Shown one piece after another: positions 9,898 through 22,714 of a DNA stretch of 56,319 bases. Below the pieces are notes generated by a model. It was not told the origin of the DNA. It ran no database searches and saw only the letters and a program-made list of their open reading frames with translations. The stretch is from Gemmatimonadota bacterium (lineage in GTDB: Bacteria > Gemmatimonadota > Gemmatimonadetes > Gemmatimonadales > GWC2-71-9). Numbering within the stretch: position 1 is the stretch's first letter; every line of letters starts with the position of its first letter. The stretch covers positions 1 to 56,319 of the forward strand of contig JANYLJ010000007.1 in assembly GCA_025357945.1 (NCBI GenBank), given 5' to 3'. A program made the position numbers and the translations under genes.

Positions 9898-9927
9898 GCC
9901 GCGGTCAGCGTTCACCCTGACCGCGGC
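9898..9927. repeat. Palindromic repeat (AGCCGCGG family), overlaps a 3' gene end
   Basis: An inverted repeat with 11-bp arms (GCCGCGGTCAG / CTGACCGCGGC) and an 8-base spacer, followed by another AGCCGCGG half-site. It shares the core CCGCGGCTTTAGCCGCG with repeats at 27748 and 28507. The last codons of the DEAD-like gene (stop at 9912-9914) lie inside it. Confidence 0.6.
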
Positions 9928-11420
9928 TTTAGCCGCGGACCACTCCCGCCCCGCCCCTGATCGACCCGCGCGGTGAGCTTGCGCCGCCGGATCGTGATCC
10001 CGCTCAGGCGTTGGACGATCGCCTCGGCATCGGCCGCCGGGACTTCCACCAGAGCAAAGGTATCGCGCAATTCGATCCGGCCAATCCGCGACCGCTCCAG
10101 CCCCACTTCGCGGACCAGGACCGCGACAAAGTCGGCGACCGTCGCCTCATCCTTCTTGCCCGCGCCGATCCAGATCTTGGCGACAGCCGCGCTCGCCGGA
10201 CTCGCGGCCATGATCGGCACGCTGGGCTCCGGCGTCGAAGTGCGGTCCGCGGCTGAAGCCACGGCTCGGCGGGCTCGCCAGAGCCCGAACAGCGCCGCGG
10301 CGATGGTCTGCGGGTCGAACCGTTCGAAGAGCGGTGCCAGCGCGTAGAGCGCCTCGGCATGGTCGCTGGCTTCGATCGCCTGGCCGATCTGGTGGCGGAC
10401 CGCCGCGTCCCGGTCGAGCACAGCATTCGCCGCGGAACTCACCGACATCGGCCGCCGCGACGGTGCCACGCGCGCGACGTACCCCTCGCAGCCGGGGGGC
10501 ACCAGCAGTACGACCTCGCCCACGGCCGACAACTGCGCCAGCTGCTGCGGTGACGGCAGGTCGTAGCAGACGATGCTCCCGGCGCTGGGCACCGACCGGG
10601 CGGCGAGGGTGAGGCCCGGGCGCAGCGAACCGAGGGCGCGCTGGATCAACTGGTGGTCGCGGTGGTCGGCGGTCCAGATCGTCGCCTGCGGCGCATTCAG
10701 GGCGTCGAGGACTGCGGCAATCGTCGCGGCGCGGGCCGCCCACGAGGTGGGGACGGTCCGGACACTCAACGGGCGTCCCGCGGCGGGGGTGGCTTCTGCC
10801 GCAACCCCGGTGACGACCAGAGCCTTGCGGGCGTACCGTTCGACCACGCTGTCGGCGCCATCGAGTTGATCGCGCCGTGCGGTCAGCACAACGCGCTGGG
10901 CGTCGCGCGGGAGGTCTTGCAGCAGGGCGGCGACCGCGTCGTCGGCGTGCCACTGCTCCGGCCAGGCAAAGACGATCGCCCGGAACCGTTCGGGATGCAG
11001 GGCCGATCGGGTATGGCGCTCCAGCGCCGTCTCGGGCGAAGCGACCACCACGTCACTCGGCAATACGGTGCGTTGGGCGGTGGGACCGGACGGCTCGCGC
11101 ATGACTTCGATTTGCAGCCCGGTTGCCTCGATCAGCGCGCCGAGGGTCGTGGCCCATTCGCCCACCAGACCCGGTGCGGCGAGCACCAGGACGCTGCGGT
11201 TCGCGGCGGGTTGCTGGCCGAGGAGCCCGGCGAGGATCGGGCTGGACCACGAAGGTGTCGGCGGGAGGACCACGACGACATTGCCGCCGCGCAGCACAGC
11301 GGGAACCACGTCCCGCACTTCGGGCTCATCGGCCCGCCACCCCAAACGCTCCAGGCCGGCGGCTACCGCCGGCTCCATCTGCCACTCCGCGAACCCAGCC
11401 ACAGGTGCCTCGATTGTCAA
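9912..11420 (-). CDS. Degenerate DEAD-box-like protein with DbpA-type RNA-binding domain
   Basis: A 502-residue protein with the order of a DEAD-box RNA helicase but without its catalytic motifs. The N-terminus aligns with the Q-motif region (FAEWQMEPAVAAGLERLGW), yet the Walker A position reads LPPTPSWSSP with no GKT. Where DEAD is expected it reads VFAWPEQ, and the SAT motif is replaced by LTARR. The C-terminal 75 residues (KIWIGAGKKDEATVADF... to ...RRRKLTARV) match the DbpA/CsdA RNA-binding domain. ATP hydrolysis looks impossible, so it may be an RNA-binding or ribosome-assembly cofactor derived from a helicase. The start is probably TTG at 11420 because it keeps the Q-motif Phe; an ATG at codon 15 is an alternative. 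It is divergent from the aminotransferase. Confidence 0.75.
   Translation of the reverse strand: MTIEAPVAGFAEWQMEPAVAAGLERLGWRADEPEVRDVVPAVLRGGNVVVVLPPTPSWSSPILAGLLGQQPAANRSVLVLAAPGLVGEWATTLGALIEATGLQIEVMREPSGPTAQRTVLPSDVVVASPETALERHTRSALHPERFRAIVFAWPEQWHADDAVAALLQDLPRDAQRVVLTARRDQLDGADSVVERYARKALVVTGVAAEATPAAGRPLSVRTVPTSWAARAATIAAVLDALNAPQATIWTADHRDHQLIQRALGSLRPGLTLAARSVPSAGSIVCYDLPSPQQLAQLSAVGEVVLLVPPGCEGYVARVAPSRRPMSVSSAANAVLDRDAAVRHQIGQAIEASDHAEALYALAPLFERFDPQTIAAALFGLWRARRAVASAADRTSTPEPSVPIMAASPASAAVAKIWIGAGKKDEATVADFVAVLVREVGLERSRIGRIELRDTFALVEVPAADAEAIVQRLSGITIRRRKLTARVDQGRGGSGPRLKPRSG
10248..10271. repeat. Copy of the CCGCGGCTNNAGCC repeat inside a coding region
   Basis: Twenty-four bases that match, with about two differences, the reverse complement of the core of the repeats at 27748-27799 and 28507-28558. 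It lies in the low-complexity linker between the helicase-like and RNA-binding domains of the DEAD-like gene, where an insertion would be tolerated. Confidence 0.5.
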
Positions 11421-11492: not shown

Positions 11493-12683
11493 ATGCCCTT
11501 CACTCGCTCGCCCAACCTGGCCCACCTCAAGTCCTCCGAAACCGTCGCGATCAGCACCGAGGCTCAACGCCGCAAGGCCGCCGGCGAGGACGTGCTCGAT
11601 CTGGGCGCCGGTGAACCCGATTTCGACACCCCTGCGGCGGTGGCCGACGCCGGAATCGCCGCGATTCGTGCCGGCAAGACCCGCTACGCGCCGAACGTCG
11701 GCACCGTCGAGCTGCGCCGGGCGATGGCCGCCTCGTTCTCGAGAATGAGTGCCGGTCGAGCGGTGGACCCGGATCGAATAGTGGTCAGCAACGGTTCCAA
11801 ACAGTCGCTCTTCAATGCCTGTTTCGCCCTGTTCGGTCCGGGGGACAAGGTCCTGGTTCCATCGCCGGCCTGGGTGTCGTATCCGCAGATCGTACACCTC
11901 GCGCGGGCCGAGCCGGTGACCGTGCCGGGCGATCCCGAATGGAGCCTCAAGGTGAGTGTCGCCGATCTGGAGAAGTTCCGGGACGCCAACACCCGGGGTG
12001 TGATCCTCTGCTCGCCATGCAACCCCACCGGCGCGGTGTACACCCAGGCTGAGTTGCACGCGATCGCCACGTGGGCCGCGGCGCACGGCATCTGGCTGTT
12101 GAGCGACGAGATCTACCGACGCATCCACTACGGCCCAGGACCGGCGCCGTCGCTGTTCGATCTCGACGATGCGGTGCTGGACCGGAGCGTCGTCTTTTCG
12201 GGTGCGTCGAAGGCCTACGCGATGACGGGGTGGCGCATCGGCATGTCGTACGCGCCGCTCGAACTCACCCAGGCGATGGCGGCGCTGCAGAGTCACACCA
12301 CCACCGGAGCCAACCAGCCGGCGATGTGGGCGGCGACCACGGCGTTCGGCGACCCGGCGATCGATGTCGAGGTGGCGAAGATGGTGGCGGCGTTCCGCCG
12401 GCGGCGCGACTATCTCGTCGCGCGTTTCCAGGACCAGCTCCCCGGCGTGGAGTTCGTTGAACCGCACGGCGCGTTCTATTTCTTCTTTCGTGTCGACGGG
12501 CTGGCCCCGGGGCGCAATCTCGGTGGCGCGAAATTCTGCGAGCAGTTGATGAAGGACGAAGGGGTGGCGATGGTGCCTGGTGCCGCGTTCGGCGACGACC
12601 GCTGGGTTCGCCTTTCCTTCGCGGTATCAGACACGGTGCTGGAAGCAGCCTGCGATCGGCTGGTTCGCTTCGCCCTGAAATGA
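11493..12683 (+). CDS. PLP-dependent aminotransferase, aspartate aminotransferase type (class I)
   Basis: A 396-residue fold-type I aminotransferase. The Schiff-base lysine is Lys240 in SGASKAYAMTGWRIG, where Arg248 is the phosphate/substrate arginine. Other signatures are EPDFDTP (41-47), CNPTG (176-180, with the conserved Asn) and SDEIYRRIHY (204-213). It is probably an aspartate (or aromatic/prephenate) transaminase of the Ib subgroup. I chose the ATG at 11493; the longer in-frame N-terminus is shadow sequence antisense to the DEAD-like gene. The nurA gene begins 11 bases after its stop, so it may be the first gene of the following operon. Confidence 0.92.
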   Translation: MPFTRSPNLAHLKSSETVAISTEAQRRKAAGEDVLDLGAGEPDFDTPAAVADAGIAAIRAGKTRYAPNVGTVELRRAMAASFSRMSAGRAVDPDRIVVSNGSKQSLFNACFALFGPGDKVLVPSPAWVSYPQIVHLARAEPVTVPGDPEWSLKVSVADLEKFRDANTRGVILCSPCNPTGAVYTQAELHAIATWAAAHGIWLLSDEIYRRIHYGPGPAPSLFDLDDAVLDRSVVFSGASKAYAMTGWRIGMSYAPLELTQAMAALQSHTTTGANQPAMWAATTAFGDPAIDVEVAKMVAAFRRRRDYLVARFQDQLPGVEFVEPHGAFYFFFRVDGLAPGRNLGGAKFCEQLMKDEGVAMVPGAAFGDDRWVRLSFAVSDTVLEAACDRLVRFALK

Positions 12684-12694
12684 CTGTGCCGTAA

Positions 12695-13615
12695 ATGAAC
12701 ATTCAGTTCAGCCGCCTCCGCCGCCGTCTCGCCCTTGCCGGCGGGAGGCCAGCGTCGTCGTCGGCGGAGTCGGTGCATGGCCGCCGCGACGACGCGGAGT
12801 ACCGCCCCGCCGTCCTGCTCGACCCGCCGCTCCGGCATGTTGCCGTTGGTGCGCCTGAGCGGTGGAACGAGGACGTCGCGTTCCTCGATGGCACCCAACA
12901 CGCTGAACTGATCGGCTATGTCGGTACCTTGGCCGTCATCGGCGCCGTGGTGCGCGCTGCGGTTCGTCTTCGGCACGAACGGAAACTCGGCCTCGCCGTG
13001 GAGCGATGCCGGCGACTGGTGGTGGCGCGGCGCGAGGCCTTGGCCGCCTTCGGCGACCTGCCGACCGGGTACGAGCCGGTCGTCATGGACGAGGCGGTCG
13101 AACCCCACCCGATCCGCGATGCGCAGTCGGCGCGCGGGCTGGTCGATCGCGCACGAGCCGGACTCGAGATTGACGTCGCCCGGGCGTTTCGCGCCGGACA
13201 TGCGAGCTGGTTGATTGTCGATGGCTCCCTGTCGGCGAGCCCGGATTGGACGGCAGACGCTCGCATGATCGGCGTGGTGAAGAGCCATGCGATGCTGCCG
13301 TTCACGGGTGACGAGCTGGAAACGTACCTGACGCTGCCACAGGGGCACCGAACGTCGCTATTCCGACCGGAGAGCCGGCGGGTGACGCCGCTCTATTCAT
13401 GGGCATTGCGACTGCACGAGTTCGCCGGGCGCGACTTGTTTCATGGGCTGGTGCGGGTCGAAGCGCCCGCGACGGAAGCGACCTGCGCGGGCGCTGACAC
13501 GATATCGCGCTACTTGCTCGCGGAGCGAGCGCCGCTGTCGAACGATCCGCGCGCCGATCGCCTCCTCTATGGCATCCACGACGTCGAACGGTATCTCGGA
13601 GTATCGCGCGCGTGA
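12695..13615 (+). CDS. nurA: NurA-family nuclease
   Basis: A 306-residue protein with a NurA nuclease domain: 5'-3' and single-strand nuclease activity working with HerA is known for the family. Candidate metal ligands are Asp65 in FLDGTQ and Asp176 in WLIVDGSL. Other family traits are VVKSHAMLPF (about 194-203), LYSWALRLHEFAG, the ISRYLLAERAPLSNDPRADRL stretch (residues 270-290) and the terminal YGIHDVERYLG with His295. The first 25 residues are basic and Ser/Ala-rich. The TGA overlaps the GTG start of the HerA-like gene (GTGA), and mre11 and rad50 follow, so the assignment rests on context as well as motifs. Confidence 0.8.
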   Translation: MNIQFSRLRRRLALAGGRPASSSAESVHGRRDDAEYRPAVLLDPPLRHVAVGAPERWNEDVAFLDGTQHAELIGYVGTLAVIGAVVRAAVRLRHERKLGLAVERCRRLVVARREALAAFGDLPTGYEPVVMDEAVEPHPIRDAQSARGLVDRARAGLEIDVARAFRAGHASWLIVDGSLSASPDWTADARMIGVVKSHAMLPFTGDELETYLTLPQGHRTSLFRPESRRVTPLYSWALRLHEFAGRDLFHGLVRVEAPATEATCAGADTISRYLLAERAPLSNDPRADRLLYGIHDVERYLGVSRA

Positions 13616-15552
13616 CCAGCGCGATTCTTGGCCAGGTGGTGGCGACCGAACTGAAGCCGAGCACGCCGCACCAATTCCATTTCTGGACGACGCCGGCTGC
13701 TGCGTGCGGCATCGGTACCATCGTTCGCGTGAATGACACGCATCGCACCATCTTCGCGGTGGTGATCGAAGGGTTCGCCTACGCGGACCTTGCCCGTCCG
13801 CTCGATGCCGTGATCGGCGCCGACGGCGATCCCGCGCGCGTCGCCGACGAACCGTCGCTGCGACCGGAGATCCGGCTCTGGAGTGCGGCCGTGTTGCGCC
13901 AGCTTCCCGAGGAGCCGATGCAGCCGGTGCCGTTCGGTGCGGTGACACTCGCCACCGACGCCGACGTGCGGATCGCCCTGCGCATGGATGCCTACGTGAC
14001 CGACACCCGGTCGACCGGCGTTCCGGTCGGACTCTACGCCGCGGGCGGCCTGTCGGCGCCGGTGCTGCTCGACGCCGACTTCCTGCTCGGGCCGGAAGCG
14101 GCGCACCTCAATATCAGTGGCGTGTCGGGCCTCGCCACCAAGACCAGCGCGGTGACGTTCTTGCTATCGAGCATCTTCCAGACGTTTCCTGCGCCCAAGG
14201 GGAGCGTTGCCGCCGTCTGTTTCAACGTCAAGGGTCCGGACCTCTGTTTCCTCGACCAGCCCACGGCGCTTGGGCCAGACGACCTGGCGGTGTGGCATCG
14301 GCTCGGGCTGCACGCCGCGCCATTCAACGACTTCACCGTGTTCGCGCCGTTCAAGGCGGATGGCGTCAACATCAACACGCTGCGCAACCATCCGGCGATC
14401 GCCGATCGGGTGCAACCGCTGGTCTGGGGGCTGCGCGAGATCCTCGACTACGCCGAGGTGGTGCTCAATCGTGATGACGTGGACGCCAAGGCCGACGCGT
14501 TGATCGATTTCCTCGCGGATCGCGTCGTCGGGAAACGGTACCTCGCGCCGGAACTTCGCGATGCGCCATTCGAGGTGCAGAGCTTTGCCGATCTCGACGA
14601 ATTCTTCCGCGCCATCTTCGACCTGCTCGAGACGCAACGCGGCGGCGACGTCTGGCGCACGCACCACGTGGCCACGATTCGCAAGATCCGCAACCGGCTC
14701 GGGAATATCGCGACCCGCTCGAAGGGGTTGGTGACCGACGACGCCGTGGCGAACGATCTCCCGTGGGGAGCGTTCCGCGATCGATCGATGACGGTGATCG
14801 ACGTGGCCGGTGTGGATCCGCTCGCGCAGGACCTCGTATTCGCGCGGGTGATCTCGAAGCTCCGGGAGCACCTCGAGCGCCGCGACCTCGGCGTCGACCA
14901 CGTCGTCGTGTTCGTCGATGAACTGAACAAGTACGCGCCGGCCGACGGACCCGACACCTACGTCAAGCGGATGCTGCTTGATCTCTCGGAGCGCGGTCGC
15001 TATCTCGGTCTCGTGCTCTTTTCGGCGCAACAATTCCGGTCGCAGGTGTTGCGTCGTATCACAGGCAACGCGGGCACGTCGGTGTATGGCAGGATGGACA
15101 GCGACGAGCTGGCGATGCCGGGGTACGCCACCTTGTCGCCGGCGGTGAAGGCGAAGCTCGCGACGCTCCCCAAGGGCGAGCTGATGGTGCGGCACCCGCA
15201 TTTCACGCAACCGATCTTCGTACGCTTTCCCCGACCCGCCTCCCTCTCGGGCCGTGAGGGCGTCGAGCGGTTTCCACCCGAGGTCGACCTGCCGTTCGCT
15301 GATGCGGTCATTCGCCGCCTGAAGGCCCTCGACCCCGCGATCGCCGGCGACGAGGTGCGGGCGGCGATCGACGGCCGCCCGGACGCGGAAGTGCGCCGGG
15401 CGGTGTCCGCCACCACGCAGCGTCGGCCCGACGATGTGTTCGCCTTCTTCCGTGGCTGCCTCAAGCGCACCATCGCCGCCACGGTGGTCGAGCCGCGCCG
15501 CGGCATTGCGCCGCTGGCGCACGACGACGCCGACCCGTTCGCCCCATATTAG
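13612..15552 (+). CDS. herA: HerA-type ATPase/translocase
   Basis: A 646-residue P-loop ATPase of the HerA/FtsK (DUF87) class that should pump DNA into or through the NurA nuclease. The N-terminal region (1-165) looks like a HAS-barrel. The Walker A is a variant, GVSGLATKTS (170-179), and Walker B is VVVFVDELNKYAP (431-443) with Asp436-Glu437. A SAQQ sensor lies near 471, and an arginine-finger candidate in RRITGNAGTS at about 481. The GTG start is coupled to the nurA stop. The GxATKTS P-loop is a subfamily trait rather than damage. Its partners are NurA directly, and Mre11-Rad50 functionally, as in archaeal resection operons. Confidence 0.85.
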   Translation: MTSAILGQVVATELKPSTPHQFHFWTTPAAACGIGTIVRVNDTHRTIFAVVIEGFAYADLARPLDAVIGADGDPARVADEPSLRPEIRLWSAAVLRQLPEEPMQPVPFGAVTLATDADVRIALRMDAYVTDTRSTGVPVGLYAAGGLSAPVLLDADFLLGPEAAHLNISGVSGLATKTSAVTFLLSSIFQTFPAPKGSVAAVCFNVKGPDLCFLDQPTALGPDDLAVWHRLGLHAAPFNDFTVFAPFKADGVNINTLRNHPAIADRVQPLVWGLREILDYAEVVLNRDDVDAKADALIDFLADRVVGKRYLAPELRDAPFEVQSFADLDEFFRAIFDLLETQRGGDVWRTHHVATIRKIRNRLGNIATRSKGLVTDDAVANDLPWGAFRDRSMTVIDVAGVDPLAQDLVFARVISKLREHLERRDLGVDHVVVFVDELNKYAPADGPDTYVKRMLLDLSERGRYLGLVLFSAQQFRSQVLRRITGNAGTSVYGRMDSDELAMPGYATLSPAVKAKLATLPKGELMVRHPHFTQPIFVRFPRPASLSGREGVERFPPEVDLPFADAVIRRLKALDPAIAGDEVRAAIDGRPDAEVRRAVSATTQRRPDDVFAFFRGCLKRTIAATVVEPRRGIAPLAHDDADPFAPY

Positions 15553-15555
15553 GCG

Positions 15556-16740
15556 ATGCGTCTCGCGCACCTGGCCGATCCACATCTGGGGTTCCGGCAA
15601 TTCCACCGCCTCACCGAGCGCGGGCGGAATCAGCGGGAAGTCGACGTCGCGCTGGCGTTTACGCGCGCTGTCGATGGCGTGATCGCGGCACGCCCGGATG
15701 CGGTGGTCGTTGCCGGCGACCTGTTTCATGCGGTCCGGCCGACCAATTCGGCCATTCTCCACGCGGTGCAGCAGTTCCACCGACTGCGACGTGCCCTGGG
15801 CGACGCGCCAATCGTGGTGATTGCGGGGAACCACGACACGCCGCGCTCGACCGACACCACATCGATCTTCGGCCTGCTGCATGAAATCGGTCTGCACGTG
15901 GCGGATACGTCGGCGCGCCGATTCACATTTCCCGAACGAGATCTCAGCATTTTCGCCGTTCCGCATCAAGCCATGTTCGAGACCCCGCGCGTGGCACTGG
16001 AGCCGGCCGGGCCGGAACGCTACCAGGTGCTCGTCATCCACGGCGAGACGCCGGGGCTCTTCGGCGACGATCATAGCGCGGCCGAACCGGGTGGTGCGCA
16101 CCTCAGTGACGACGACTTGCGCGCGAACTGGACCTATGTGGCACTCGGGCACTACCACGTGCAACACGAAGTCCGCGAGCGGCAGTGGTATGCCGGCGCG
16201 TTGGAGTACTGCTCACCAAATCCGTGGGGCGAGCTGCGCGAGGAACGCGACGCGAAGCTGAAAGGGAAGGGGTGGTTGCTTGTGGATCTCGACGCCGGGG
16301 TAGCACACCGCCGCGCGATCGAGCCGCCGCGGCGCTTCCTCGACTTGCCATGGCTCGACGCGAAGGAGCTCGCCGCCCCGGAACTCGACCGCCTGATCGC
16401 CGATGCCGTGACGAATGTTGCGGCCGGGATCGCCGGCGCCGTGGTGCGGCAGGTGGTTCGCAACGTCGCGCGACCGGTCGCCCGCGAACTGGACCACGCG
16501 CGGATCCGGGCCTGGAAGGCCGAAGCGCTCCATTTCCAGCTCGATTTGCGCCGCCCCGACACGGCCGCCCGCCAGAGCGCCAGCGGGGCGCCCGGCAGGC
16601 CGGAGACATTGCCGGAAACGCTCGCGAGCTACCTCCGCGAGCGCCAGCTCCCGCCGGGCATCGAGCCCGGTCGCTTCGTGCAGCGCGGCGTCGAGTTGCT
16701 GGCAGCGGTGGAGCGCGAAGCCCTCGGAGCGGAGGGCTGA
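15556..16740 (+). CDS. sbcD: Mre11/SbcD-type nuclease
   Basis: A 394-residue calcineurin-like metallophosphoesterase, the nuclease subunit of the Mre11-Rad50 (SbcCD) complex. All metal motifs are present: DPH (8-10), GDLFH (54-58), GNHD (91-94), IHGE (161-164) and GHYH (198-201). The C-terminal 150 residues should hold the Rad50-binding region. It starts 3 bases after the herA stop, and its TGA shares one base with the sbcC ATG (TGATG). The LADPHLG N-terminus (instead of SDxHLG) and its place after herA resemble archaeal-type Mre11 operons more than proteobacterial sbcDC. Confidence 0.92.
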   Translation: MRLAHLADPHLGFRQFHRLTERGRNQREVDVALAFTRAVDGVIAARPDAVVVAGDLFHAVRPTNSAILHAVQQFHRLRRALGDAPIVVIAGNHDTPRSTDTTSIFGLLHEIGLHVADTSARRFTFPERDLSIFAVPHQAMFETPRVALEPAGPERYQVLVIHGETPGLFGDDHSAAEPGGAHLSDDDLRANWTYVALGHYHVQHEVRERQWYAGALEYCSPNPWGELREERDAKLKGKGWLLVDLDAGVAHRRAIEPPRRFLDLPWLDAKELAAPELDRLIADAVTNVAAGIAGAVVRQVVRNVARPVARELDHARIRAWKAEALHFQLDLRRPDTAARQSASGAPGRPETLPETLASYLRERQLPPGIEPGRFVQRGVELLAAVEREALGAEG

Positions 16741-19154
16741 TGCAACTCTTGCGATTGAAGTTGCAGAACTTCCGCCAGCACGCACTGACCGACATCCGCT
16801 TCGATCGCGGGCTCACCGGCATTGTCGGTCCCAACGGCGCCGGCAAGACGACACTGCTTGAAGCCATCGCCTACGCGCTCTACGGCGTGCAAGGGACGCG
16901 CGGTGTGAAGGAGACGCTGCGTCGGCGCAACGCGCCGCCACGGTCGCGCTTCGAGGTGACGCTCGAGTTCGAACTCGGTACGCATCGCTATTCGCTCTCG
17001 CGTACGGCCACGAACGCCGAGCTGATGCAGGATGACCAGACGATCGCGAACAGTACCGGTGCGGTGACCGACCGGATCATCGCACTCCTCGGCATGCGTC
17101 GCGACGAATTCTTCAACACCTACTTCACCGGGCAGAAGGAGCTCGCCGTGATGGCGGCGATGGGCCGCACCGAGCGCGCCCAGTTTCTGTCGCGGGTGAT
17201 GGGATACGATCGCCTGCGCGACGCGCAGGAGCGGTTGCGCCAGGAGCGCTCGGCGCGCAAGTCGCAGCTCACCGGCATCGAGCAGGGGTTGGCCGACCCG
17301 CAGGCGCTGGAGGTGGAGTTGACGGCAGCCGTGAGCGCGCTCGAGGCGGCGCGCACCGAGCGGGTGGTGGCCCTTGGCCGCGAGCGCGAGGCGAGCGAGC
17401 GGATGGCCGTGCTGGCGCCGGGATGGACCACGGCGCGGGAACGCCGAACCGCCTGGGAAGCGCTCGACGGCGAACGGCGGTTGGTGGAACAGCGCGTGGC
17501 CGTCGCGCGGGCGCAGTTTCAGGCGCTCGACCAGCAGCTTGCGGCGGCGCTGCAGGCGCAGACCCGGCTGGGTGAGCTGGCAACGGTGATTGCCGACTGG
17601 AACGCGCTCGCTGCCGAACGCGTGGCGCTTGAGGCCGCCGCGGTCGCCTACACCGCGCGCAGCAGGACGGTGGCGCGCCGCGATCAGGCGCGGCAGCGTC
17701 TCATCGAAATCGACGCCCAGTTGGCGCTCCTCCCCGACGCGGCACGCGCGCAGGAACTCGCCACCGCGCGCTCGACCGCCCTGGCGGCGCGGGAAGCCAC
17801 CGAGAAGGACGTGGCCGAGCGGCGCAAGCGCTGGACCGAAGACGTACAGGAGGCGCGGACGAAGTTGGCGGCGTTCCGGGAACGGTACCGGGAACTCAAG
17901 GACCAGCGTGATCTGATCGAAGAGCAGGGGCCAGAAGGGATCTGCCCGACCTGCGGTCGTCCGCTCGGCGATTCGTTCACCGGCATGCTGGCGCTGCTCG
18001 CGCGCCAATTGGAAGAAGTGCAGACTGACGGCACGTATTTCGGCCAGCGCGTCGCCCAGCTGACCGAGTTGCCGCCGGAGATCAAGGATCTCGACGTCGA
18101 ACGGCAGCGACTCGAGCAGGACCTGCGGCGCGCGACCGAGGCGCTCGGCCAGGTCCAGGCGCAGGCGCGTCAGCGCCAGGAGCTGGAAGTCGAGCGCACC
18201 CGGCTCATCGAAGAGCTGGCGCGGCTGGACGTCGAGCTGGCGGGACCGGCGGGCAGCTACGACGCCGCCCGCCACGAGCAGGTACGGACGCGGCTGGCCG
18301 AGTTGGACGTATCGCGACGGGAGCACGACCAGCTCACCGGTGTCGCCACGCGGGCCGAGGCGCTGGTGGGTGAGGCGGCGTCGGCGGAGCAGCGGGCATC
18401 GACGGCGGAGGCGGAACTGGCGGCGCTCGACCAACGGCTCGCGGCGCTCGGCTGGGATGCCACCATGTTCGTGGCATTGGAAGCCGCCGTGCGCGAGGCG
18501 GAACTGGACCTGCACTCGGCACAGTTCGCGGTCGCCAGCGCGGCGGCGGCGCTGGAGCGCGCCGAGGAATTGCGGCAAGCGGCGGTGGCGCGACAGGCCG
18601 ATCGAGCGACCAAGGCGGAGTTGGCGCGGGCACTCGGCGACGAGATCAACCTGTTGGAGGAACTCGATCGGGCATTCAGCGACCTCCGCACCGAACTCAA
18701 CCTGCAGTTGCGTCCCGACTTGCAGGAGAACGCGTCGCAACTGCTCCAGGAACTCACGGCCGGGCGGTACGATGACCTGGAACTCGACGAGAGCTACGTC
18801 GCGACGATTGTGGAGGATGGCGAGGTGAAGCCGGTCATCTCGGGCGGCGAAGAAGACATCGTCAACCTGGCGCTGCGACTTGCGATTTCGCAGATGATCG
18901 CGGAGCGCGCCGGCAAGCCGTTGTCGCTGCTCGTCCTCGACGAAATCTTCGGCTCACTCGACGAAGAGCGGCGCGCATCGGTCCTGGCGTTGTTGCGCGC
19001 CTTGTCTGATCGCTTCCCGCAAGTGATCCTGATCACCCACGTGGAGGGGATGCGCGATGCATTCGACCGGCTGATCCGGCTGTCATACGACGTCGAGACC
19101 GGCGTTACCACGGTGCGAGAGGACACGCCGGAGGCGCTCGATGTGGCGGTCTGA
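16740..19154 (+). CDS. sbcC: Rad50/SbcC-type SMC-like ATPase
   Basis: An 804-residue ATPase that clamps DNA ends for the Mre11 nuclease. The N-terminal half-ATPase has Walker A GPNGAGKTT (30-38). Long coiled coils of Glu/Arg/Ala/Leu heptads run from about 180 to 680, broken by a zinc hook CPTC near 402-405. The C-terminal half has the signature SGGEED near 700 and Walker B LLVLDEIFGSLD near 730. At 804 residues it is shorter than E. coli SbcC (about 1050), so the coiled arms are short and closer to archaeal Rad50. The ATG overlaps the sbcD stop. The 3' end overlaps the GNAT gene by 14 bases. Confidence 0.93.
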   Translation: MQLLRLKLQNFRQHALTDIRFDRGLTGIVGPNGAGKTTLLEAIAYALYGVQGTRGVKETLRRRNAPPRSRFEVTLEFELGTHRYSLSRTATNAELMQDDQTIANSTGAVTDRIIALLGMRRDEFFNTYFTGQKELAVMAAMGRTERAQFLSRVMGYDRLRDAQERLRQERSARKSQLTGIEQGLADPQALEVELTAAVSALEAARTERVVALGREREASERMAVLAPGWTTARERRTAWEALDGERRLVEQRVAVARAQFQALDQQLAAALQAQTRLGELATVIADWNALAAERVALEAAAVAYTARSRTVARRDQARQRLIEIDAQLALLPDAARAQELATARSTALAAREATEKDVAERRKRWTEDVQEARTKLAAFRERYRELKDQRDLIEEQGPEGICPTCGRPLGDSFTGMLALLARQLEEVQTDGTYFGQRVAQLTELPPEIKDLDVERQRLEQDLRRATEALGQVQAQARQRQELEVERTRLIEELARLDVELAGPAGSYDAARHEQVRTRLAELDVSRREHDQLTGVATRAEALVGEAASAEQRASTAEAELAALDQRLAALGWDATMFVALEAAVREAELDLHSAQFAVASAAAALERAEELRQAAVARQADRATKAELARALGDEINLLEELDRAFSDLRTELNLQLRPDLQENASQLLQELTAGRYDDLELDESYVATIVEDGEVKPVISGGEEDIVNLALRLAISQMIAERAGKPLSLLVLDEIFGSLDEERRASVLALLRALSDRFPQVILITHVEGMRDAFDRLIRLSYDVETGVTTVREDTPEALDVAV

Positions 19155-20103
19155 CGCGACGCTGTCGGGCCCGGTGCGCGCGACCGCGGCCGACATCGAG
19201 GGCCTCAACCGCGTTTTCTCCGAGGCATTCACCGAGCGGTACCGTCGCGACGGGCTGTCCGGCGTGCGGGTGCCCTACCTCAACCCGGCGGTGTGGCAGT
19301 TTGCCATCGACGACGCGGGCGAGGGCGCGATGACGTGGCGCGACGCCCGCGGCGACGTGGTCGCGTTCAACATGGTGCATCGCTCGGGGAGCGAAGGGTG
19401 GATGGGGCCGCTCGCCGTGCGCACCGACCGCCAGGGCCAGGGCCACGGCCAGCGGATCGTGCGCGCCGGGATTGCCTGGCTCGAATCGCAGGGCGTGCGC
19501 ACCATCGGTCTTGAGACGATGCCGCGCACGATCGACAACATCGGCTTCTACTCGCAGGTGGGTTTCATCCCGGACCATCTCACGGTCACGCTGCAGCGGG
19601 ATCGGCCCCGGGGCGCCGGACCGTCCGGCGAACGGATGGCTGCCCCGGCGGGCGTGCAGCGGAGCGCTGCGATCGAGGAGTGTCGCGACCTCGCGAACGC
19701 GGTGGTGGCCGGCGTGGATTTCAGCCGCGAAATCGAGCTGACGCTGGAGCAGAGCCTGGGCGGCGTGTCGTTGGTGCGCGGCGATACTGGTGAATTGCGC
19801 GGCTTCGCGCTCTGGCACTCAGCACCGTTGGCACAGGGACGGGTGCGCGAAGAACTCCGGATCCTCAAGCTCGCGGCAGCGAGCACGGCCGATGCACTGG
19901 CGGTGGTCGCCGCCGCCGAGCGCGAAGCGGCGGCGCTGTCGCTCGGGCGGCTGGGGCTGCGTTGCCAGACGCGCCACGCGGAGCTGTATGCGGCACTCAT
20001 TGCCGACGGCTTCCGGGTGCAGTGGACCGACCTCAGGATGACGCTGGTGGGGAAGCGGGAGCCGGAGCGGAACGGCGTGATGCTGTCGAATTGGGAGATC
20101 TAG
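19141..20103 (+). CDS. Tandem GNAT acetyltransferase
   Basis: A 320-residue protein with two GNAT-like halves. The first (about 10-155) has a clear acetyl-CoA motif A in VRTDRQGQGHGQRIVRAG, followed by TIGLETMPRTIDNIGFYSQVGF. The second (about 175-310) is weaker and lacks an obvious RxxGxG loop, so it may only help shape the substrate site. The substrate is unknown. Its ATG lies inside the 3' end of sbcC (14-base overlap), making it the last gene of the nurA-herA-sbcD-sbcC operon by position. Whether it acts in DNA repair is not shown by the sequence. Confidence 0.8.
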   Translation: MWRSDATLSGPVRATAADIEGLNRVFSEAFTERYRRDGLSGVRVPYLNPAVWQFAIDDAGEGAMTWRDARGDVVAFNMVHRSGSEGWMGPLAVRTDRQGQGHGQRIVRAGIAWLESQGVRTIGLETMPRTIDNIGFYSQVGFIPDHLTVTLQRDRPRGAGPSGERMAAPAGVQRSAAIEECRDLANAVVAGVDFSREIELTLEQSLGGVSLVRGDTGELRGFALWHSAPLAQGRVREELRILKLAAASTADALAVVAAAEREAAALSLGRLGLRCQTRHAELYAALIADGFRVQWTDLRMTLVGKREPERNGVMLSNWEI

Positions 20104-20110
20104 ACGCCCC

Positions 20111-20449
20111 TTGACAGTCGGATCATACTTGTACAGCTTTCCTGTACAACATAAACCCGAGGTCCTGCTGGGCGTCAAGACAAGCTACCGTCACGCGCGC
20201 GAAAACCTTGCGACGCGCTGGGATGAGGTCGAGGACTCGCGCGAGGCGGCCGTCATTCAGCGTCGGGGCCATGAGGACATGGCGTTGATTCCCGCGGACG
20301 AGCTCTCGAGCCTACGCGAAACGGCCTACCTCCTTCGCTCGCCCGCGAATGCCGTACGTCTTCTCGCAGCTCTCACTCGAGCGCGGCGCGGCCGGACCAA
20401 GCCAACGGACCTGGCCGTGTTGCGCCGCGAACTCGGGATGGCATCCTGA
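20111..20449 (+). CDS. YefM/Phd-family antitoxin (start uncertain)
   Basis: A small antitoxin. The recognisable part begins VKTSYRHARENLATRWDEVED and continues through VIQRRGHEDMALIPADEL and TAYLLRSPANA, the usual YefM layout: an N-terminal DNA-binding fold and a C-terminal tail that wraps the toxin. The reading frame is open from a TTG at 20111, but that TTG sits in a TTGACA promoter-like box upstream of a TGTACA operator. True translation therefore probably begins near 20165-20175. No ATG, GTG or TTG is in frame there; CTG is the only near-cognate codon. The toxin gene follows. Family assignment is good; the start is not settled. Confidence 0.7.
   Translation: MTVGSYLYSFPVQHKPEVLLGVKTSYRHARENLATRWDEVEDSREAAVIQRRGHEDMALIPADELSSLRETAYLLRSPANAVRLLAALTRARRGRTKPTDLAVLRRELGMAS
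20129..20149 (+). promoter_or_regulatory. TGTACA double-site operator upstream of the antitoxin
   Basis: An inverted repeat with perfect 8-bp arms, TTGTACAG (20129-20136) and CTGTACAA (20142-20149), 5 bases apart. Each arm contains the hexamer TGTACA, and their centres are 13 bp apart. The E. coli yefM-yoeB operator also uses repeated TGTACA cores about one helical turn apart. A TTGACA box lies at 20111-20116. Autorepression by the antitoxin-toxin complex is inferred. Confidence 0.65.
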
Positions 20450-22285: not shown

Positions 22286-22564
22286 TCACCCGGTTCTCGA
22301 GCATAGCCGGCCGAAACCGAAGTCCCGCAGCCCCGCCTCGGTCACGACGTCGACCCGGCGACCAAGCAGACGCTCCAGCGCGATGTCGATTCGCGCGAGA
22401 TCGAGCAGCGTCCGGCCGAGCGCGAGGCGAATCAGAACATCCACGTCGTTCTCGGTCGTGTGCTGGTCTCGGGCAACGGAGCCGAAGAGACGCACGTCCT
22501 TTCCGCCGAAGGCGGCGGCTCGGATGGAGCTACTCTGTTGGCGTAGCTGGTCGCGGAGATTCAT
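22286..22564 (-). CDS. MNT-type nucleotidyltransferase (orphan antitoxin-like)
   Basis: A 92-residue minimal nucleotidyltransferase. The family pattern GS-x(10)-D-x-D is present in LFGSVARDQHTTENDVDVLI, followed by LLDLARIDIALERLLGRRVDVVTE. In MNT/HEPN modules such proteins AMPylate and silence a HEPN toxin. The C-terminus (GLRDFGFGRLCSRTG) departs from the usual ending, which suggests a late frameshift or truncation. No small HEPN partner is adjacent, but a larger HEPN-type gene lies about 150 bases upstream on the same strand. The start is the ATG at 22564; longer frames upstream have shadow composition. Confidence 0.7.
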   Translation of the reverse strand: MNLRDQLRQQSSSIRAAAFGGKDVRLFGSVARDQHTTENDVDVLIRLALGRTLLDLARIDIALERLLGRRVDVVTEAGLRDFGFGRLCSRTG

Positions 22565-22714
22565 GGTTATCAACGATAGCCTATGGCGGCGACACTCGGG
22601 AGGCCCATCCCCGCCTTCGGGATCTGACATACGCGACCCACTACGACAGAAGAACGCCGGCGTGGACTGCGGGGAACGATCCGCCGAGGTTACAGTCGGT
22701 GAAGAAAAGCGGGC

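Follow-up and report, generated by a model that had tools for sequence, protein, structure and literature searches.

How a member of the Gemmatimonadota processes the ends of broken chromosomal DNA is a question raised by a five-gene operon lying at positions 12695-20103 on the forward strand of a 56,319-nucleotide stretch of Gemmatimonadota DNA (hereafter, the window), corresponding to contig 71 of a host genome of 3.0 Mb that is 99.8% complete. The operon encodes, in order, NurA, HerA, Mre11, Rad50 and an acetyltransferase of the GNAT type. It is likely that the operon serves as a chromosomal double-strand-break end-processing module, with NurA-HerA conducting resection and the GNAT protein regulating Mre11-Rad50. 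An initial annotation of the window had described four linked end-processing genes in a tightly coupled operon, and indeed all five open reading frames and each of the junctions were as claimed, with nurA and herA sharing a GTGA overlap at 13612, herA and mre11 being separated by a gap of 3 nucleotides (nt), and mre11 and rad50 overlapping by 1 nt within TGATG (16738-16742). A scan of the operon for promoters and terminators returned nothing above chance. Searches of the literature returned no description of the operon in Gemmatimonadota.

When the NurA protein alone served as query, no match was obtained in Pfam, NCBIfam or the PDB, and the Pfam NurA model (PF09376) was weakly matched by 3 of 53 relatives. 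A profile of the family (53 rows), by contrast, detected both Deinococcus radiodurans NurA (DrNurA; 7f6d_H, 6e-4) and Thermotoga maritima NurA (TmNurA, i.e., TM1739; 1zup, 1.4e-3). An AlphaFold model of the protein (predicted local distance difference test score, pLDDT, of 93.4) was matched by Foldseek to DrNurA (1.6e-12), TmNurA (1.4e-10) and SsoNurA (2.2e-7), the best four PDB chains being DrNurA, TmNurA (two chains) and SsoNurA. The motif residues were identified as D65, E158, D176 and K196, with the catalytic acidic residues being retained in 49/53 (D65), 52/53 (E158) and 53/53 (D176) relatives, and with E158 and D176 aligning with TM1739 in the profile alignment. Because the profile search succeeded despite the failure with Pfam, the protein was treated as a divergent family member and is predicted to be a bacterial-type NurA nuclease with an RNase H fold. 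As such, the NurA assignment of the initial annotation fell short in a single-sequence Pfam search, yet was confirmed by profile and fold.

D. radiodurans HerA (DrHerA; PDB 7f6d) was matched by the window HerA with E=1e-43 as a single sequence and 4e-56 with the family profile, the two aligning over both halves, whereas no match to archaeal HerA was seen at E<1. The Walker A and Walker B motifs read GLATKTS (K177, T178) and VFVDELNK, respectively. The GxATKTS P-loop variant to which the initial annotation had drawn attention is thus present but is a family signature rather than an oddity, being invariant as GLATKTS among HerA relatives and appearing in the aligned DrHerA as GVATKTS. In DrHerA, K175 and T176 bind nucleotide and Mg (PMC9960219). 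Judging from these alignments, HerA is a predicted Deinococcus-type (i.e., bacterial), hexameric-type DNA translocase. Since both NurA and HerA appear to be of bacterial type, recent import of the whole set from Archaea is unlikely.

Mre11 is a calcineurin-type nuclease containing the motifs DPH, GDLFH, GNHD and GHYH, while Rad50 is an ABC/SMC-type ATPase in whose translation a CPTC zinc hook can be read. The Mre11 phosphoesterase motifs, both Rad50 ATPase halves and the zinc hook are all present, and for both proteins archaeal Mre11/Rad50 models and PDB chains score best. Rad50 had been described as short; at 804 amino acids (aa), however, it is of normal length, as Rad50 across the order to which the host belongs is mostly about 800-840 aa, and the hook is kept. 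At one locus elsewhere (L164:10813-14463), a continuous open frame of 1216 aa spans both mre11 and rad50, possibly reflecting a fusion or a sequencing artefact.

The fifth gene starts inside rad50, as described, its ATG lying 14 nt within that gene (the overlap is usually about 10 nt in relatives). Its product had been described as a tandem acetyltransferase; structure prediction together with a fold search revealed one 320-aa chain comprising two GNAT folds. The first domain contains the coenzyme A (CoA) loop Q98xxG101xG103, of which Q98, G101 and G103 are invariant in 44 sequences, while the second domain does not present such a loop. The protein ends in the five residues SNWEI, as do 93 of 96 sequences. 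Of 163 near-complete genomes of the order, 159 contain a strong homologue (one of these, G080, with a partial match only), while homologues outside the order are weak. As to the question of linkage in relatives, gnat lies directly 3' of rad50 on the same strand in 96/97 loci (37/37, 49/50 and 10/10 in three sets, the last comprising genomes of the order without HerA); at three HerA-bearing loci in families outside the order, gnat is absent after mre11-rad50. Because rad50-gnat persists in HerA-less genomes, GNAT belongs with Mre11-Rad50, and gnat was ruled out as a component of NurA-HerA.

This linkage leads us to infer that GNAT modifies or regulates Mre11-Rad50. It is also quite possible, if not favored here, that GNAT is a metabolic or detoxifying enzyme that acetylates a small molecule and merely shares the rad50 transcript, given that its fold neighbors are tandem GNATs, including MshD, MAB_4324 and 3tt2, and that its weak relatives in other bacteria adjoin ectoine, halogenase or unrelated genes. 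Against this reading, the adjacency of gnat to rad50 survives both the loss of nurA and herA and the insertion of other genes, whereas the gene families found downstream of gnat are common to at most 25 of 44 loci. Moreover, the best sequence-profile match of GNAT is RimI, a protein acetyltransferase. As for how regulation might be achieved, one could tentatively imagine a dedicated operon-encoded acetyltransferase controlling bacterial Mre11-Rad50 by direct acylation, with the active site possibly making use of the near-invariant C-terminal residue. N-myristoyltransferases use their C-terminal carboxylate in the active site. Were this so, the break-repair machinery of a whole bacterial order would carry its own post-translational switch. 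In any event, the fixed rad50-gnat pair offers a concrete and testable candidate for acylation control of bacterial Mre11-Rad50.

Conservation of the operon was considered in two sets of loci, 80 from named genomes and 45 from a second collection, with some genomes appearing in both; families f1 (that of the host), f2 and f3 lie within the order. All 80 named genome matches for HerA are from Gemmatimonadota, many being labelled Gemmatimonadales, and of the 159 near-complete genomes belonging to f1 and f2, the two main families, 140 contain HerA. Where the contig is long enough, the usual order is nurA-herA-(variable gene)-mre11-rad50-gnat, with translational coupling, the exceptions being losses of nurA and a few others (e.g., L113, L104 and L149). 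In about 20 loci (L093-L172, e.g., L150:9877-10803), a gene for an exported-looking protein of roughly 290 aa, for which no Pfam match was found, is situated between herA and mre11. In families f5 and f6 (G183-G228, G276), each genome has two weak matches to the HerA profile (E between about 1e-22 and 1e-33), which correspond to a different family of HerA-related ATPases.

In seven HerA-containing genomes (G006, G008, G009, G011, G013, G016 and G031), NurA was not detected anywhere in the genome with the family profile at E<=0.1. The placement of eleven nurA-less rows in the HerA tree calls for at least 8 changes, even when well-supported branches alone are counted, such that nurA was lost at least about eight times while herA-mre11-rad50 stayed. 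Remnants of nurA were sought in the nurA-less loci, with only one (L165) containing such a sequence, corresponding to the last 35 profile positions and lying just upstream of herA. It could accordingly be proposed that the essential partner of HerA is Mre11-Rad50 and that NurA is an accessory nuclease. This is in line with the HerA motifs remaining intact in lineages that lost nurA and with archaeal Mre11 binding HerA, as reported in PMC2288612, but is nonetheless somewhat unlikely, as nurA is unlinked in family f8 and yet is present in 4/4 genomes checked, meaning that the HerA-NurA pair is usually kept.

The initial annotation had suggested that the operon may replace RecBCD or AddAB. Whether these enzymes are absent was addressed in the host genome, with the presence of AddA, RecB or AdnAB being judged by way of the UvrD_C and PDDEXK_1 domains. 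No RecB-, AddAB- or AdnAB-type nuclease was found in this genome, with the best match to PDDEXK_1 (PF12705; E 0.0062) falling below the cut-off, nor was RecC found. The single UvrD_C protein, of 770 aa, is of the PcrA/UvrD type. RecJ and RecO are present. NurA-HerA may thus be the helicase-nuclease of this genome, with the operon probably doing the job of RecBCD/AddAB there, alongside RecJ. Still, replacement can be proposed for this genome only, and not as a general rule, because many HerA-containing relatives also carry RecBCD/AddAB. Specifically, RecC or a strong PDDEXK_1 protein was detected in 38/140 f1 and f2 genomes with HerA, as compared to 15/19 of those without (Fisher p=2e-5), yet this inverse trend within the order was not significant when phylogeny was controlled for using independent pairs (6 informative pairs, median p=1). 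As such, the idea that RecBCD/AddAB compensates for HerA loss was not upheld. Outside the order, PDDEXK_1 proteins occur in nearly all families without this HerA. Gemmatimonas-like relatives carry genuine RecBCD, as in L191 (G043), a true RecBCD operon in a genome without HerA in which the NCBIfam models for recB, recC and recD were matched above cut-off; a similar three-gene set (L192; G058) is found in a Gemmatimonas-like genome that has HerA.

By analogy with the biochemistry of DrNurA-HerA, which in vitro cuts the 5' strand during translocation so as to make a 3' tail (PMC9960219), and with that of the archaeal proteins, the following course of events can be envisaged. Mre11-Rad50 would recognize and clean the DNA end, after which a HerA hexamer would pump duplex DNA into a NurA dimer. 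The latter would cut the 5' strand, and RecFOR would load RecA onto the resulting 3' tail. GNAT, as the fixed partner of Mre11-Rad50, would most likely act as a regulator, acetylating (or N-acylating) either of these two proteins or another that they encounter.

Several points weigh against such a module. The repeated loss of nurA from loci that kept herA indicates that NurA is dispensable. Deletion of nurA-herA in D. radiodurans raised survival of ultraviolet light and mitomycin C about 10-fold (PMC9960219), and resection by NurA-HerA is, therefore, not always in favor of repair. Known tandem GNATs of this fold include small-molecule enzymes (MshD), such that a protein substrate is not assured. 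The first two of these points, together with the presence of RecJ and RecO in the host genome, could be taken to mean that NurA-HerA, rather than being the main resection machine, competes with repair by RecJ-RecFOR or acts as a brake on it, a role proposed in D. radiodurans. This is unlikely, given that a brake would not obviously be kept as widely as HerA is in f1 and f2, and that no other helicase-nuclease was found in the host genome.

A role in anti-phage defence, also raised by the initial annotation, is very improbable, for although Rad50 matches generic defence ATPase models, HerA weakly matches mad8, and an ImmA/IrrE gene is found close to plasmid relatives, with TIGR02680/TIGR02678/DUF2397 genes nearby at one of them, the operon is a single-copy, chromosomal element present in most genomes of the order with conserved gene order, unlike patchy defence islands, and in PADLOC NurA was not matched and HerA was matched only weakly.

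For other phyla, the survey covered plasmids and phages. Plasmids of Chlorohelix (L193) and Sphaerospermopsis (L195) contain NurA-HerA-SbcD-SbcC operons, with NurA being supported by hhalign, while a Streptomyces plasmid (L194) contains HerA-SbcD-SbcC; of these plasmid operons, which come from Chloroflexota, Cyanobacteria and Streptomyces, two are found near ImmA/IrrE genes. Because bacterial plasmids also carry such operons, the four-gene linkage is not peculiar to Archaea. In Marinitoga camini virus 1 (L198), annotated NurA and HerA genes are located near a LexA gene. According to a 2023 structural paper (PMC9960219), NurA-HerA is confined to a few bacteria, such as Deinococcus-Thermus. In the order considered here, which belongs to a common phylum, HerA is by contrast near-core and is joined to mre11-rad50. 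The natural losses of nurA, of nurA and herA together, and of RecBCD/AddAB moreover provide a ready comparative system for considering the role of each part.

The operon and the gene preceding it are listed in Table 1. The aminotransferase gene was excluded as a member of the module, since in relatives it is near, but other genes often intervene. Further upstream, the window encodes a protein of 502 aa in which a DbpA RNA-binding domain, but no DEAD-box helicase core, can be recognized (9912-11420, reverse strand). Directly after the operon, in a stretch of lower GC content (20-26 kb), are genes encoding a Phd/YefM antitoxin (20111-20446, forward strand) and a minimal nucleotidyltransferase (22289-22630, reverse strand).

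Table 1. Genes of the operon and its upstream neighbor, with window coordinates and the evidence for each assignment.
Gene	Product length	Coordinates	Strand	Evidence
class I/II aminotransferase		11496..12683	+	PF00155 4.9e-68; 11 nt upstream of nurA
nurA	306 aa	12695..13615	+	profile matches to DrNurA and TmNurA, fold matches, motif conservation in 53 relatives
herA	646 aa	13612..15552	+	DrHerA 7f6d E=1e-43, alignment, motifs
mre11	394 aa	15556..16740	+	PF00149, Mre11 models, PDB chains, motifs read in translation
rad50	804 aa	16740..19154	+	AAA_23, SbcC_Walker_B, Rad50 models
gnat	320 aa	19141..20103	+	PF00583 1.9e-9, structure and fold, conservation, linkage

When compared to known systems, the module presumably shares with RecBCD/AddAB the job of helicase-coupled resection prior to RecA loading, although the proteins are unrelated, and RecBCD/AddAB, while not found in the host genome, is present in some relatives. 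The tandem GNATs 3tt2, MAB_4324 and MshD resemble the window GNAT in containing two GNAT folds in one chain, yet are only ~14-16% identical to it, and the window protein differs in its link to rad50 and in its near-invariant SNWEI. The Chlorohelix and Sphaerospermopsis operons match the first four genes of the window operon in both content and order but are plasmid-borne, encode a HerA that is about 28% identical and do not include a GNAT gene. In the archaeal herA-mre11-rad50-nurA clusters, as cited in PMC9960219 and PMC2288612, the same four proteins are clustered, and it is on archaeal models that the window Mre11 and Rad50 score best; HerA and NurA, however, appear bacterial-type here, and GNAT is added. 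Finally, with the D. radiodurans system (7F6D; PMC9960219), the pair considered here shares a HerA that aligns over both halves, the ATKTS P-loop and the same predicted NurA fold, as well as a host stated to be without RecBCD/AddAB, as found here. The sequences are, nonetheless, remote (18% for NurA in the fold alignment), and in Gemmatimonadota the pair lies in one operon with mre11-rad50, followed by gnat.

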